Below are positions 6,790 through 12,149 of a stretch of DNA of 64,000 nt, piece after piece (within the stretch, counting starts at the first letter, position 1; each line of letters starts with the position of its first letter). Below the pieces are notes generated by a model. That model worked only from the letters and a program-made list of their open reading frames with translations, did no database searches and had not been told where the DNA came from. A program made the translations under genes and the position numbers. The DNA is from Bacteriovoracaceae bacterium (GTDB lineage: Bacteria; Bdellovibrionota; Bacteriovoracia; Bacteriovoracales; Bacteriovoracaceae), in NCBI GenBank assembly GCA_019752535.1, contig JAIEMA010000064.1:1-64000 (forward strand), read 5' to 3'.

Positions 6790-7173
6790 ATGAAGAAAAT
6801 AATTTGTATTTTAGGAATTGTATTTCCTGGCTTAGCAACAAAAGCTTTAGCACAACAGATGAAAATCCCAAGAATAGTTGACCTAAGTCCAGAGCGCTCT
6901 ATCCTCAAGCCAAGTCATGAAGAAATTAGAAAGCTATCCCTTTATGAGTCCTGCTCAGATGAAGAGCGCGTTTCATTTCTCAAGAAATTGATTCTCAATT
7001 CGAAAGTTGAAAGATCATCAACTTTAAATGATCTTTTACTTAAAACTAATCTTGAAGATATTTTAAGAGAGCCTATTGAGATTCAAAAGGATGCAATAAT
7101 TGAATTGATTCGCAAAGGGGGTCTTGAGTGGGGAAAAGTTATCGATCCTACAGAACATATTGGGTCTGCATAA
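6790..7173 (+). CDS. Secreted 127-aa protein, first gene of the YcaO/kinase operon
   Basis: Not recognised. The ATG has GGGAG eight bases upstream. An N-terminal signal peptide ends around KALAQQ (cleavage near residue 22), so the product is predicted to be periplasmic. The mature part is about 105 aa, charged and mostly helical in character, with a single Cys near residue 55 and none of the Cys/Ser/Thr-rich tail expected of a classical azole peptide precursor. It overlaps the next gene by 46 bases, so it belongs to the same transcript and is probably co-translated. It could be a partner or substrate of the downstream YcaO or lipoprotein; this is inference from position only. Confidence 0.6.
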   Translation: MKKIICILGIVFPGLATKALAQQMKIPRIVDLSPERSILKPSHEEIRKLSLYESCSDEERVSFLKKLILNSKVERSSTLNDLLLKTNLEDILREPIEIQKDAIIELIRKGGLEWGKVIDPTEHIGSA

Positions 7174-8636
7174 TTTTGATTCTAACGGTATCTTGCATGA
7201 AAGAAGAAAAAAACATTACTGCGTTGGTTCCTATTAGTGAGCAAGTTGCTAAAGTTGATCCTTCTGAGTTAAATTCAGTAAGCCAGTATTTTATAGCTGA
7301 TAATATCGGCTTGAAGCTTCTGCATGTTAATCAAAGTAATGATTATGAAAAGATACTTGCTGAAAGTATCGAATTCAATAATGATAGAACGGAAATAATC
7401 ATAACAATTAAAGATGCAAAGTTTTCAGATGGTTCAAGCATAACATCGACGGATGTGAAGAATACTTTCAAAAGGATGATGGTGAAGGGGAGCCCGCACA
7501 TACCCCTAAAAGACTTCATTAAAAAAGAAGACCATATCCAAAATCTCAATACTCCTTTTAATTCTTTTGAGGTAATTTCAGAAAAAAAATTAAAGATTCA
7601 CCTAAGCAGACCGACAAAAGAAATTCTATACTATTTTACTTTGGCTGATTCAATTATTTTGCACTCATCCCAAATAAAAGAAGAAAATCTCACGTTAAGT
7701 GATTGGAGCATAACTTCTGGCCCATACTTTCTAAGACAGAACAACATTTTAGAAAAGAATAAAATAAGTCTAGTTGCTACTAATGAAATGCCTGACAAGG
7801 TAAAGCTAATTCCTGCTCCGGAGGTTGGCGATACTAATGTTCTCACAACAGCAGACATGGGGTACTCATTTTTTTTAAAGAAAGAAATCCATGAGGAGAT
7901 ATCTCTTCCCCGAAATTATAAGTTTTCAACTGATTCATTTAGTACAATAAATTTCCTGGCAATAAACACAAAGTCAGATAAGTTTAAAGATATAAAGACA
8001 AGGCAATGGTTGAATAGCAAGATTCAAAAGCGATTTTTAAAAGATCTTCCTGGAAATCCATATTATAAGAAAGCAAATCAGTTTTTCTTGGTTGGTTCAA
8101 AGTTTTATAGAGAAAATTTTAATTGTGAAAATTTTCTTTCTGAAAGTGACAGAGTGCCAGATTCATTAAAAGATGGTTTGACAATTATGACGGCAGTTCA
8201 AGGGAAAAAGTTTGCTTTTGATGGTCTAGAAAATGAACTTGAGGCAGCGTTGGGAATTAAGGTAACTATAAACTTTACTGATTCTGTTGAACAGTACCAA
8301 AAGAGAAAAGTTGATAGAGACTACGATGCTTATTTTGTTCCTACTTCTGCTAGTTATCATGTAGCAAGTGAATCTCTGAATCTCCTTTATAAAGCAAAAA
8401 AGAGATTTGCCGATAATCCAAACGGAAAGATAAATGATCTTATTGATAGCTATCAGAAGAGTGAAGGAGATTCAGTTGGAATTGTTTCCAGTATTATTGA
8501 AGAAATGTGCAAAGAATCTGAAGTAATTCCGCTATATTATTTATCATCTCCAAAGTTTTATAATTCTTCAACGGTTGATATATCTGCCATGAACCCTAAC
8601 GAGTCGATGACTTTCTGGAGAATTCGTGTTCTCTAG
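7128..8636 (+). CDS. Family 5 (peptide/nickel type) solute-binding lipoprotein
   Basis: A 502-aa protein resembling periplasmic dipeptide/oligopeptide-binding proteins: the N-terminal half has the typical LAESIEFNND...DAKFSDGSSITSTDVKNTFKRM pattern. GTG start at 7128 with AAGGGGG upstream. The N-terminus has basic residues, a hydrophobic stretch WVCIILILTVSC and a lipobox-like TVSC, so it is likely lipid-anchored with Cys at residue 23. No ABC permease or ATPase gene is nearby, arguing that it captures a ligand for sensing or hand-off instead of import. It overlaps both its upstream (46 bases) and downstream (11 bases) neighbours. Confidence 0.75.
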   Translation: MGKSYRSYRTYWVCIILILTVSCMKEEKNITALVPISEQVAKVDPSELNSVSQYFIADNIGLKLLHVNQSNDYEKILAESIEFNNDRTEIIITIKDAKFSDGSSITSTDVKNTFKRMMVKGSPHIPLKDFIKKEDHIQNLNTPFNSFEVISEKKLKIHLSRPTKEILYYFTLADSIILHSSQIKEENLTLSDWSITSGPYFLRQNNILEKNKISLVATNEMPDKVKLIPAPEVGDTNVLTTADMGYSFFLKKEIHEEISLPRNYKFSTDSFSTINFLAINTKSDKFKDIKTRQWLNSKIQKRFLKDLPGNPYYKKANQFFLVGSKFYRENFNCENFLSESDRVPDSLKDGLTIMTAVQGKKFAFDGLENELEAALGIKVTINFTDSVEQYQKRKVDRDYDAYFVPTSASYHVASESLNLLYKAKKRFADNPNGKINDLIDSYQKSEGDSVGIVSSIIEEMCKESEVIPLYYLSSPKFYNSSTVDISAMNPNESMTFWRIRVL

Positions 8637-9537
8637 GTTAAAACTTTTATCAGCAGCTCCACAGTTACTTGATGCTCTTAAGAGTTACTCGGACTCATTT
8701 CAACTAGAGAGATCCTGGTCTCATAGTGGGATTCACACTGTACATTTGAGTCTTAAGAAAGATGAAGTAAACTACAATTCTTGGGGGATTGATACCAATG
8801 AAGCTGTTGCGTTGGCAAAGTCGTATATGGAAATGGTTGAGAGGATACACTCAACCATAATGCCATCTCTATGGATGACTTTTGATCAAAAATTCGTACA
8901 AAATTTAAACCAAGACTTAATTAGCAATTTTATGTCGACAACTTCTGGTTGCGCGGCTCATTTGACACGCTCAAGTTGTTTTAAGAATTCTGAAGAGGAG
9001 ATAGTTGAGAGGCATTCATTTACTGAGATTTGTCTTAAAAATATTTCTCCACTTAGAATTTATAATAACACTCTCATTTGGCGTGCTCCTAATAATTACT
9101 TTGTGTCTTTAGCCTACTATCTTATTCCCGATGGGGGAGTCATTTTTGGGGCCGGGGCAGGCAGCAATGAAAATAAAGCCATATTAAAAGCTCAGTTTGA
9201 ATTATCGGGTGCTGTGGCTTGGTCAAGAAATCCATCAAATGTCAAAATGCTGATGGAAAGCAACTGTTCCACAGGTTCTTCTTTTGTCAGAAAAAAACAT
9301 CTTTTATTAAACGATTTGCCTGCTTTTATGCAGAAGACTGCGCCTAATGGAATAGTAAAAAGTGTGGATGTGTATTATGGGTGCATTGATCTGTTGCCTG
9401 AGTTTTCAAATGTCGCTGGTTTAAATGTTACTCGAGCAGTATCACCAGATCTTATTCCTTTTTCATTTCTCCCGTTGAGAGAGCAACCATTTGGCGCCCT
9501 GTTTGATTCAGAGCTAGAGCATTGTGTTGTAGTTTAA
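8626..9537 (+). CDS. Divergent YcaO-domain protein
   Basis: 303 aa. YcaO enzymes use ATP to activate peptide amide bonds (azoline, thioamide, amidine formation). The hallmark ATP-site pattern is visible in order: EMVER at 69-73, a SGCAAHLT turn near 107 followed by EEEIVERH with E125/E128/R129, GAGAGSNENKA at 175-185 followed by AQFE (Q190, E192), and a late VTRAVSPDLIPF block resembling the C-terminal V-P-G-L region. The Ser normally at the start of motif 1 appears replaced by Lys64. The Pro-rich C-terminal tail of azoline-forming YcaOs is absent. GTG start with CTGGAG upstream, inside the end of the lipoprotein gene. No E1-like, TfuA or dehydrogenase partner is adjacent. Confidence 0.72.
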   Translation: MFSRLKLLSAAPQLLDALKSYSDSFQLERSWSHSGIHTVHLSLKKDEVNYNSWGIDTNEAVALAKSYMEMVERIHSTIMPSLWMTFDQKFVQNLNQDLISNFMSTTSGCAAHLTRSSCFKNSEEEIVERHSFTEICLKNISPLRIYNNTLIWRAPNNYFVSLAYYLIPDGGVIFGAGAGSNENKAILKAQFELSGAVAWSRNPSNVKMLMESNCSTGSSFVRKKHLLLNDLPAFMQKTAPNGIVKSVDVYYGCIDLLPEFSNVAGLNVTRAVSPDLIPFSFLPLREQPFGALFDSELEHCVVV

Positions 9538-9538
9538 T

Positions 9539-11200
9539 ATGAAAAAGAATATTCGGACTTCATTTTTGGTTGTAATGAGTGTCACAATAGGTTTGGTTAC
9601 ACTTATTGCGATTTTCGTATACGCAATTTATCAAAGAAATCAATTCGAGACGGAACTTCGTAGTTCAATTCAAAATCAAGCAAAGCAGATAATTGCCACT
9701 CATCCGGAAGAGAGAAAAACCCATCAGTATCTGATCATTCAGCGACTTTTAAAAAACATCAACAATGTAGAGTCTGTTGTCGTTTTAGACAAAGACTGTA
9801 AAACGCTCTTAGGTTCGATTTCCTTGCCAATTACTGATGGGATTTGTCCCTCAAATCAAGAAGGTCTTCTCGTCTTGCCCTATTCAGATGTTCTATCGGG
9901 CATTGGTTTTATAGTTATAAAGATTGAAATAATTAAGTTTGCAAAAAATGAAGTTCTTTTAGTACTTGGATTATCAATTTTACTAGCTTTAATAGTTTTC
10001 TTTGCTTTGAAGATAATTTGGGAAAAATACCTCTACAATCCACTACTGTTAGAAATTCAAGGAATTGTTTCTAGCGATAAAAGAGAAACATTCTCTGAGT
10101 TTAAGCCAATAATAAATCACTTAGACCAACTCCTTATTGAGAAAACATTTATAATTAAGCGGAAAATTGAACTAGAGTCAGAAGAGAAGAAATTTAAAGA
10201 AGCAATTAAGGTCGCTCACGATATTTTAAATCCTATTCAAGTTTTGAAATCGAATTCATCCACTGATTTAAAACTTAAGGCATTAGACCAAATCGAGAAA
10301 ACTGCATGGGACCTTCTCCCTGAAAAAGCACCATTATTCATAGAGAGCTTGAATGTAAACAATCTTATTTCCCAAGTTATAGATATATTAAGATCTGAGT
10401 TCCCAGAACTTAATGTGAGCTTTAATGGACATGAGGAGTTTTATGCTCAGGTTTCATCTACTCATTTCCTTCGTTCATTTCAGAATTTGCTAAAAAATGC
10501 GATAGAGGTCCAATCTAATAATGTTCCAATAGAGATATGGGTTTCTGCAAATATTGATTATGTAACTATTCAAATAAATGACAATGGGCCAGGGTTCACA
10601 GATAAAGCTGGCGTTACAACCAAAGTTCACGGGAGTGGCGTTGGAATATCAAGTGCGAAGGCTTCCTTAGAGCTAATGAATGGTTCTCTTTCTTATGAAT
10701 CTAGACCTGAAGGTGGAATCAGAACTGTGATTAATTTGCCCTCAGATCAGATTCATCTTTTTTATGGACCTAAGCAAGTTCCTGTTACTTTTGGGGTTTA
10801 TATTCCGGGTATCATGCAAATTATGAATGCAAATGAGCTTTGCTCAAATCACTATGTCATATCTGTGTTTGATCCTCGATCTGAATTCAATGGTGTCTGG
10901 AAGAAAATTCTAGTATCTGATTTGAGTAGGATCAAATTGATTAAGATTGAGAAAGCTCTATTAGTAGATGATGATAAATATATACTGGCTAATTGGGTTC
11001 AGAAGGCTCAGCAGGTCGGAATTGATTTGAAAGTTGAGAAGCATAAAGTTGACGTTGTTACTGAGGAAGTCGTTTTTCTTGATAGATATCTTGATGGATT
11101 TGATTCATTTGAATGGCAGCAAGAACTTGTCAGGATTGGAAAGAGTGTTGTTTCTATCTCTGGCTTAAACTCTCGTAGTAAGATTCCTCCCTGGTCTTAG
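9539..11200 (+). CDS. Hybrid sensor histidine kinase with degenerate receiver domain
   Basis: 553 aa inner-membrane kinase. Two membrane helices (about 9-31 and 137-160) enclose a ~105-aa periplasmic sensor region. The phospho-acceptor box is VAHDILNP with His227. The ATPase domain shows NLLKNAIEV (N box), NDNGPGF (G1) and GSGVGIS (G2) near 315-375. A C-terminal receiver-like domain follows: acidic LLVDDD near 475 and a phosphorylatable Asp515 in VFLDRYLD, but the end is short. It starts one base after the YcaO stop, so expression is coupled; no separate response regulator gene adjoins. It probably reads the state of the periplasmic lipoprotein or 127-aa protein. Confidence 0.85.
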   Translation: MKKNIRTSFLVVMSVTIGLVTLIAIFVYAIYQRNQFETELRSSIQNQAKQIIATHPEERKTHQYLIIQRLLKNINNVESVVVLDKDCKTLLGSISLPITDGICPSNQEGLLVLPYSDVLSGIGFIVIKIEIIKFAKNEVLLVLGLSILLALIVFFALKIIWEKYLYNPLLLEIQGIVSSDKRETFSEFKPIINHLDQLLIEKTFIIKRKIELESEEKKFKEAIKVAHDILNPIQVLKSNSSTDLKLKALDQIEKTAWDLLPEKAPLFIESLNVNNLISQVIDILRSEFPELNVSFNGHEEFYAQVSSTHFLRSFQNLLKNAIEVQSNNVPIEIWVSANIDYVTIQINDNGPGFTDKAGVTTKVHGSGVGISSAKASLELMNGSLSYESRPEGGIRTVINLPSDQIHLFYGPKQVPVTFGVYIPGIMQIMNANELCSNHYVISVFDPRSEFNGVWKKILVSDLSRIKLIKIEKALLVDDDKYILANWVQKAQQVGIDLKVEKHKVDVVTEEVVFLDRYLDGFDSFEWQQELVRIGKSVVSISGLNSRSKIPPWS

Positions 11201-11251
11201 TATTGATTTTCTATGAATTATACTTTGACGAATCCGCTCAGAATTCTCTTT

Positions 11252-11783
11252 TCTTGCTCCGAATCCCTGAATCATTTAGAATTTAAAAACTGGTGAGGGT
11301 TAAACCCCATATGTCAGGATATGGGCCTCACCAAAACAAATCCCCGCATTCGAGGGGAAGTATTTAATAGAAAACCGCTGCCCCTTGCACCCAATCCCTG
11401 AATCACTTAGAATTAAAAAACTGGTGAGGGTTTGAACCCCTTTGTTCAGAGCAAAGGGCCTCACCAGAACAAATCCCCGCATTCGAGGGGGAGTTTTTAA
11501 TAGATAGCCGCTTCCTCTTGCACCCAATCCCTGAATCATTTAGAATTAAAAAACTGGTGAGGGATAAACCCCTTTGTTGCGAGCAAAGGGCCTCACCAGA
11601 ACAAATCCCCGCATTCGAGGGGGAGTTTTTAATTGAAATCGCTTCCTCTTGCACCCAATCCCCAAATCATTTAGAATTAAAAAACTGGTGAGGGTTAAAC
11701 CCCATAGGGCAGTACTATGGGCCTCACCAGAACCAATCCCCACATTCGCGACGGAGTTTTCAGATGCAATCGCATCTTTGGGT
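11252..11783 (+). repeat. Four tandem ~132-bp structured repeats (candidate multi-domain non-coding RNA)
   Basis: Units start at 11262, 11393, 11526 and 11657 (periods 131, 133, 131). Each has the same plan: an AT-rich left strand (ATTAAAAAACT), TGGTGAGG, a 7-8-nt bulge GTTAAAC, a 7-bp stem with a 6-7-nt loop, CCTCACCA, then CCCC-GCATTCGA-GGGG, then AGTTTTTAAT, which pairs with the left strand. This makes a three-way junction. The inner stem covaries: CCCATAT/ATATGGG in unit 1, CCCTTTG/CAAAGGG in units 2 and 3, CCCATAG/CTATGGG in unit 4. Unit 4 has lost the CCCC/GGGG hairpin. No sensible protein is encoded; strand is not determined. I do not recognise an RNA family. Confidence 0.8.
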
Positions 11784-11891
11784 TAGTTGGTCATTGAGTA
11801 GTGGAAATATGTCGCTGAAAGTTCTCTTGTGGAACATTGACATTAAGAGTGAGCGAAAATTTTATTGATTCAATCGTACTGAGTTATCGAT

Positions 11892-12149
11892 TTACTTATC
11901 TTTCTCTGATTCCCAAACCGTCCTCGGCTTCATCTTATTCTCTTTAAAGTAGTAGAGTGCCTCTTGAATCAAGACTTGATAGCCGCGGCCAGTTTCAGCG
12001 GAGAGTGCTTTAAAATATTCTACAACTTCATCATCTAGATTCATGAACACGCCTCGGCGAGTGGCTTTTTCAAAATCAAAGCCCTTGGCCATTTCGGCTT
12101 CCATTTCTTCGCGCTCTTTTTTTGTGAGTGGCTTGAAATTATGTTTCAT
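11892..12149 (-). CDS. BrnA-like antitoxin, orphan
   Basis: 85-aa protein with an unfolded charged N-terminus (LTKKEREEMEAEMAKG) and a C-terminal ribbon-helix-helix-like part: VFMNLDDEVVEYFKALSAETGRGYQVLIQEALYYF in outline, matching the BrnA pattern of a short strand, a helix, a Gly-Tyr turn and a second helix. BrnA normally follows its toxin gene brnT, but no toxin frame is found upstream on this strand (12150-12420) or downstream, so this is an orphan antitoxin, a plain regulator, or the remnant of a pair. An inverted repeat upstream may be its operator. Confidence 0.65.
   Translation of the reverse strand: MKHNFKPLTKKEREEMEAEMAKGFDFEKATRRGVFMNLDDEVVEYFKALSAETGRGYQVLIQEALYYFKENKMKPRTVWESEKDK

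Follow-up and report, generated by a model that had tools for sequence, protein, structure and literature searches.

A tandem array of four putative small-RNA genes in Bacteriovoracaceae, with structurally conserved relatives in small cassettes at tRNA 3′ ends

The tandem array and its surroundings

The window analysed here, a 64,000-nucleotide stretch of a Bacteriovoracaceae contig, carries on its + strand at 11252–11760 a tandem array of four putative small-RNA genes (u1–u4) with a unit length of 131–132 bp. The array was delimited with TRF (period 131, 3.9 copies, score 727, 86% matches) and with a repeat search in which successive unit starts were 132, 132 and 131 bp apart, and matches to two models of the element, R1 and R2, were obtained in all four units, bearing out the four-unit array that a first-pass annotation had placed here. 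Upstream of the array lies a run of genes for a solute-binding protein (7128–8636), a short protein on the + strand (8626–9537) and a protein with an HATPase_c domain (9539–11200); of the YcaO/kinase operon originally proposed for this position, the HATPase_c domain was found and the YcaO match of the short protein lies below the Pfam cut-off. The first gene past the array is on the opposite strand, and a BrnA-like antitoxin gene (11892–12149, - strand; below the Pfam cut-off) adjoins the array.

The layout is the same in all four units: a -35 box, a 17-bp spacer, a -10 box, an A-tract, a long arm (CTGGTGAGG...CCTCACCA(G)), a linker, a second hairpin and a U-rich tail. All elements are on the + strand, the promoters being assigned from the unit alignment (for u1 also from family conservation), the long arms (HP1) from folding and the unit alignment, and the second hairpins (HP2) from a terminator scan. 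In u1, the putative promoter (11254–11282) comprises a -35 box TTGCTC (11254–11259) and a -10 box TAGAAT (11277–11282) and is followed by a long arm with a one-sided bulge (11290–11334) and a terminator-like second hairpin (11341–11358). The remaining units have TTGCAC and TAGAAT as putative -35 and -10 boxes. Their positions in u2 are 11385–11390 and 11408–11413 (promoter 11385–11413), with the long arm at 11421–11467 and a terminator-like second hairpin, then a U-run, at 11474–11491; in u3 they are 11518–11523 and 11541–11546 (promoter 11518–11546), with the long arm at 11554–11599 and again a terminator-like second hairpin, then a U-run, at 11606–11623. In u4, the boxes at 11649–11654 and 11672–11677 (promoter 11649–11677) and the long arm at 11685–11730 precede a second-hairpin region at 11737–11761 that is partly eroded, has GTTTTC after it, was placed from the unit alignment and was uncalled in the terminator scan. 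No column of the outer stem or of the -10 box varies among u1–u4, and the apical loop is their most variable part, with changes in six of its seven columns.

Homologues and distribution

A DNA search of 59 relatives returned clear copies in two of four same-genus genomes. Model R1, built from six sequences, matched 29 of 129 genomes of the family at E ≤ 0.1, and model R2, built from 44 matches, gave 88 matches, spread over 33 of the 368 genomes searched for the phylum, at E ≤ 0.01, a threshold at which about four genomes would be expected by chance; one of the genomes added by R2 was a third member of the genus (G003). The R2-positive genomes comprise 31 in the family of the window and two in another family, although three weak entries may be due to chance (G205, E 0.0099; G033, 0.008; G123, 0.002). 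One row of alignment A4 (L056:7183, E 0.76) was taken as a false match, and alignment A8, used for R2 and for the counts below, has no match with an E above 0.0005.

At least two matches were present in 20 of the 33 R2-positive genomes, with a maximum of ten copies per genome, and tandem pairs recur among the relatives, for example in loci L054, L058, L083 and L104. The loops of the relatives carry group-specific motifs, either GCGACGA-like or TGCAGG-like. Beyond the array there were no further copies in its own genome, the next R1 match having an E of about 1, and no similar DNA was found in phage and plasmid records. A Clostridiales MAG, the single exact-pattern match among genome contigs, was judged a chance match as only a 19-base pattern was shared and the rest of the unit was absent; the same judgement was reached for 12 pattern matches in viral contigs, for which the best R2 E was 0.0033, in three identical stretches lacking a good second hairpin.

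As a separate observation, a rare motif, ACCTTTTCGACATGGATT, immediately precedes each of the two copies in the same-genus genome G004 (L016 7381–7406 and 7601–7626), and similar motifs occur near copies or a tRNA in G119 and G139 (L056 at about 4605 and L059 at about 2170). In a search of seven genomes, each contained 0–3 matches to the pattern.

Conserved secondary structure

All four units fold on the + strand into the bulged long arm that had been described for every unit, with fold z-scores of -2.0, -2.8, -3.2 and -1.2 for u1 to u4. The outer stem, TGGTGAGG/CCTCACCA, is invariant across the four window units, as previously stated, and the reported paired changes of the inner stem were recovered in a check of six sequences (the four units and two homologues), with A-U/U-A exchanges at two positions and U-A/G-C at a third. 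Other parts of the initial description required revision. The bulge is not fixed, as three of its eight columns vary (GTTAAAC, GTTTGAAC, GATAAAC), and the AT-rich closing stem, in which by eye the A-tract after the -10 box pairs with the U-run after the second hairpin, is near-perfect in u2 and u3 only and competes with an extension of the second hairpin (AGAAAC/GUUUUCU) seen in the family. The CCCC/GGGG hairpin ascribed to each unit is present in u1–u3 and is partly broken in u4, which received no terminator call.

Covariation extends to the homologues, in which the paired changes were retained. The outer stem of a G004 copy, TGGTAAGG/CCTTACCA, is doubly changed relative to the window, and among 44 family members both-sided changes were observed at 11 of 13 tested base pairs. 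Across these 44 rows there were 68 double-changed cells, compared with 19.3 in shuffled alignments (0/500 as high) and at most 10 in slid structures, and the outer stem and second hairpin were paired in 94.5% of cells. Since the 44-row alignment was fitted to R1, these counts are biased towards the structure; however, the fit is unlikely to be the full explanation of the covariation, given the large gap to both controls. The secondary structure is conserved by comparison with both shuffled and slid controls, and the original proposal of selection on RNA structure is upheld.

Promoter and terminator signals

Of 81 copies, 79 were kept for a promoter profile. A -35 TTG was found in 76 of these 79 family copies (11% of random 7-mers hold TTG by chance), the conserved -10 letters (T, A and the final T) each stood at 93–96%, and TG preceded the -10 box in 63. 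The window units share the 17-bp spacer (4/4) but, unlike most family copies, lack the extended -10 TG. A strict promoter scan of 11150–11950 returned no site because TTGCAC fits the -35 consensus at only three of six letters, and the promoter assignment therefore rests on conservation, from which each unit appears to have a sigma-70-type promoter of its own, as a gene for a stand-alone small RNA should.

On the + strand, the terminator scan identified terminator-like sites at u1, u2 and u3 but not at u4; with both strands taken together ten such sites were called, compared with 1.0 on average in shuffled sequence. The CCCC/GGGG hairpin and its U-run look like a terminator, at least in u1–u3. 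With a putative promoter and a hairpin followed by a U-run in each unit, four short RNAs would be expected rather than one long transcript, a reading preferable to the first-pass suggestion of a single tandem RNA with repeated binding of a protein or ligand.

Independence from neighbouring genes

The nearest downstream ORF shares the strand of the RNA in 43 cases and lies opposite to it in 37, with same-strand ORFs as near as 86 nt in L057 and L119, for example, and no protein family was found near the RNA in more than six of the loci examined. The RNA is independent of its neighbouring genes: as these are unconserved and lie on either strand, it is to be regarded as stand-alone and not as a leader. 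No partner gene or operon was conserved; this applies equally to the YcaO/kinase operon of the window, whose tie to the array is not kept in relatives.

A downstream motif and the origin of the array

A motif, TTTC-N5-TGAA, occurs about 62 nt (sd 1.5) beyond the end of the model, being present at +50 to +72 in 56 of 81 copies compared with 3 of 80 control stretches; 75 of 81 rows were kept in the downstream profile, with the window, L087 and rows with short flanks excluded. In the window, a counterpart (GTTC...GAAC; 11821–11835, + strand) is found at +61 with six of eight letters, after u4 only, and a same-genus copy in G004 has a counterpart at +63 with seven of eight letters. The conserved motif indicates that the ancestral RNA may have run beyond the second hairpin, and it is plausible that in some groups the motif forms a third hairpin; alternatively, it may act as a DNA site. 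As it is kept only after u4, the four units seem to reflect tandem duplication, inside an older and longer gene, of a segment reaching from the promoter to the second hairpin.

Relatives in tRNA-end cassettes

An ARAGORN scan of 58 relative loci identified 16 tRNA genes, including six for tRNA-His and six for tRNA-Phe, and in nine of these 12 loci the 3′ end of the tRNA-His or tRNA-Phe together with its terminator is repeated further along; there was no second tRNA-end copy in L059, L089 or L121. Of the 81 RNA copies, 19 have an exact 8-letter tRNA-end motif no more than 700 bp away, at recurring distances such as 148, 139–140 and 111–156 bp, and none was found within that range for the other 62, which include those of the window. 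The shortest cassettes are about 0.4 kb long, several tRNA-end cassettes carry the small-RNA gene, and one interval of about 376 bp in L055 holds the RNA only; this locus has nine tRNA-end copies (the tRNA itself counted) but three copies of the RNA. Proteins encoded in the loci of relatives include BlaI- and BlaR1-like proteins, an acetyltransferase, AbiEi/AbiEii, a HigB-like protein (below cut-off) and a lincosamide-nucleotidyltransferase-like protein. No integrase was found inside the cassettes among the subset of cassette proteins run against Pfam, and, with regard to an integron integrase (IntI), only general tyrosine-recombinase matches were located.

In G155, a complete genome from another family, the RNA lies between tRNA-His and a 27-bp repeat of the tRNA end. 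The end of this cassette is 95.7% identical over 323 bp to a cassette end in G118, a comparison across families f1 and f6, and this identity is strong evidence for horizontal movement of the cassette between bacterial families. The window has no tRNA gene, and no cassette end was found beside the array.

Known families and nearest systems

No Rfam 15 family reached its gathering threshold in the window, the best rows of a permissive search of 11200–11900 were far below gathering scores, and 15 relative loci yielded tRNAs only; the Rfam comparison proposed at the outset was thus carried out with no match, so that the RNA is uncatalogued. A housekeeping RNA of the 6S, SRP or tmRNA type was rejected in view of the patchy distribution (33/368 genomes) and the lack of an Rfam match, and a CsrA sponge was rejected as GGA is unconserved in the loops of the alignments. 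Full-text literature searches, with few subscription papers covered, listed no report of this RNA, nor any of cassette arrays delimited by tRNA in bacteria of this kind.

Several known systems resemble parts of this one. Neisseria sibling sRNAs are similarly several near-identical small-RNA genes side by side, each with a promoter and terminator, and Listeria LhrC is another sibling set; the sibling small RNAs differ in sequence and structure, while the present RNA is sporadic, mobile and found in up to ten copies per genome. Tycheposons are integrative elements that accrete at tRNA genes and have tRNA-end repeats and variable cargo. They share with the present cassettes insertion at tRNA 3′ ends, end repeats and variable cargo, the present ones being as small as about 0.4 kb and several of them carrying a small-RNA gene. 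The nearest analogue in kind, compared by description, is sRNA-Xcc1, a trans-acting small RNA of Xanthomonas that is carried as integron-cassette cargo and has spread between species (PMC12444791). Both are small RNAs moving in cassettes; however, sRNA-Xcc1 is described in integron cassettes with symE (PMC12444791), whereas cassettes of the present RNA are bounded by tRNA 3′ ends and have no conserved partner. Intergenic small RNAs have also been reported from the predatory bacterium Bdellovibrio bacteriovorus HD100 (PMC3627812), and any link between them and the present RNA is conjectural.

Interpretation and alternative explanations

The best explanation of the array is that it consists of four tandem genes for a stand-alone, probably trans-acting small RNA outside Rfam, combined with a regulatory or decoy action, and we place the probability of this reading at roughly three in four. 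The identification as small-RNA genes, judged from sequence features, is very probable; any particular mode of action is tentative. Each unit would give its own transcript of about 80 nt, with its 5′ end in the A-tract just before the long arm and its 3′ end set by the second hairpin. The copies would have arisen by tandem duplication of the segment from promoter through second hairpin, which could have raised the dose of the RNA and left the apical loops free to diverge. Relatives often move in small cassettes inserted where tRNA-His and tRNA-Phe genes end. A scaffold that stays fixed while the apical loop varies, the many copies and the lack of any constant tie to neighbours together point, by analogy, to a trans-acting regulatory or decoy RNA, in the most likely action of which a protein would bind the constant stem-and-bulge scaffold and the apical loop would contact a target RNA. 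A role as a protein-binding sponge only, with a targetless and freely varying apical loop, is possible if doubtful: it would suit the high copy number and the contrast between the loop (6/7 columns variable) and the outer stem (invariant in the window units), but the group-specific GCGACGA-like and TGCAGG-like motifs kept in relatives argue that the variation is not free.

Readings in which the units are something other than genes for a stand-alone RNA were also considered. The conserved structure, the recurrent tandem pairs (L054, L058, L083, L104) and the occurrence of relatives in mobile cassettes at fixed distances from the ends (148, 139–140 and 111–156 bp) could be taken to mean that the hairpin is a folded-DNA recombination site like integron attC and the array a run of nearly empty cassettes; this is improbable, as the junctions that repeat consist of tRNA 3′ ends and are over 100 bp away from the hairpin, in which attC junctions would lie, L055 has nine tRNA-end copies to three RNA copies, and a promoter kept in 76 of 79 copies would be needless for a DNA site. 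A cis-acting leader or riboswitch of the adjacent gene is very improbable, despite the copies 86 nt from a same-strand ORF in L057 and L119, because copies are not consistently placed upstream of a gene they could regulate (43 same strand, 37 opposite), there is no common neighbour family, a terminator-like hairpin lies within the unit and the next gene in the window is on the opposite strand. It is equally hard to credit that the array encodes the antitoxin RNA of a type III toxin-antitoxin system: the repeats are tandem and structured, AbiEi/AbiEii and HigB-like (below cut-off) genes occur in several relatives' loci and a BrnA-like gene lies near the array, but that gene is on the opposite strand, no toxin gene follows the array on the same strand, every repeat appears to have its own promoter and the family is without a shared neighbour.

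Four tandem genes for a stand-alone small RNA would add an uncatalogued RNA family with strong covariation, and one in which a structured small RNA spreads with small cassettes at tRNA 3′ ends and crosses bacterial families; the copy-number and loop variants among genomes form a natural series that would be useful for finding targets, and the RNA offers an entry point to a cassette system resembling an integron without attC. A more far-reaching proposal, which we consider unlikely, envisages an integron-like system whose tandem mini-cassettes attach at tRNA-His and tRNA-Phe 3′ ends and whose characteristic non-coding component is this RNA; it would govern the maintenance, expression or mobility of the cassettes, and the array in the window would be a copy of it that has settled and been amplified.

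Further features of the cassette loci

A tRNA-end array lies in L055 (G130:C15, 2284–15958), where small cassettes are bounded by repeats of tRNA-His or tRNA-Phe 3′ ends with the terminator, and similar arrays occur in L096, L060, L061, L065, L092, L054, L068 and L091; as many as nine copies lie within about 14 kb. The small RNA is absent from many of these cassettes, and the arrays are reminiscent of an integron whose attachment sites are tRNA ends. The tRNA-His cassette of G155 (L082, G155:C1, 7137–9874) carries a lincosamide-nucleotidyltransferase-like gene, an internal ISL3 transposase and the small RNA. A gene pair, one example of each member of which had no Pfam match, encodes a secreted protein (CGPHEIYVREQW-like) and a small lipoprotein and recurs near tRNA-His or tRNA-Phe in L055, L056, L060, L065, L092 and L121.
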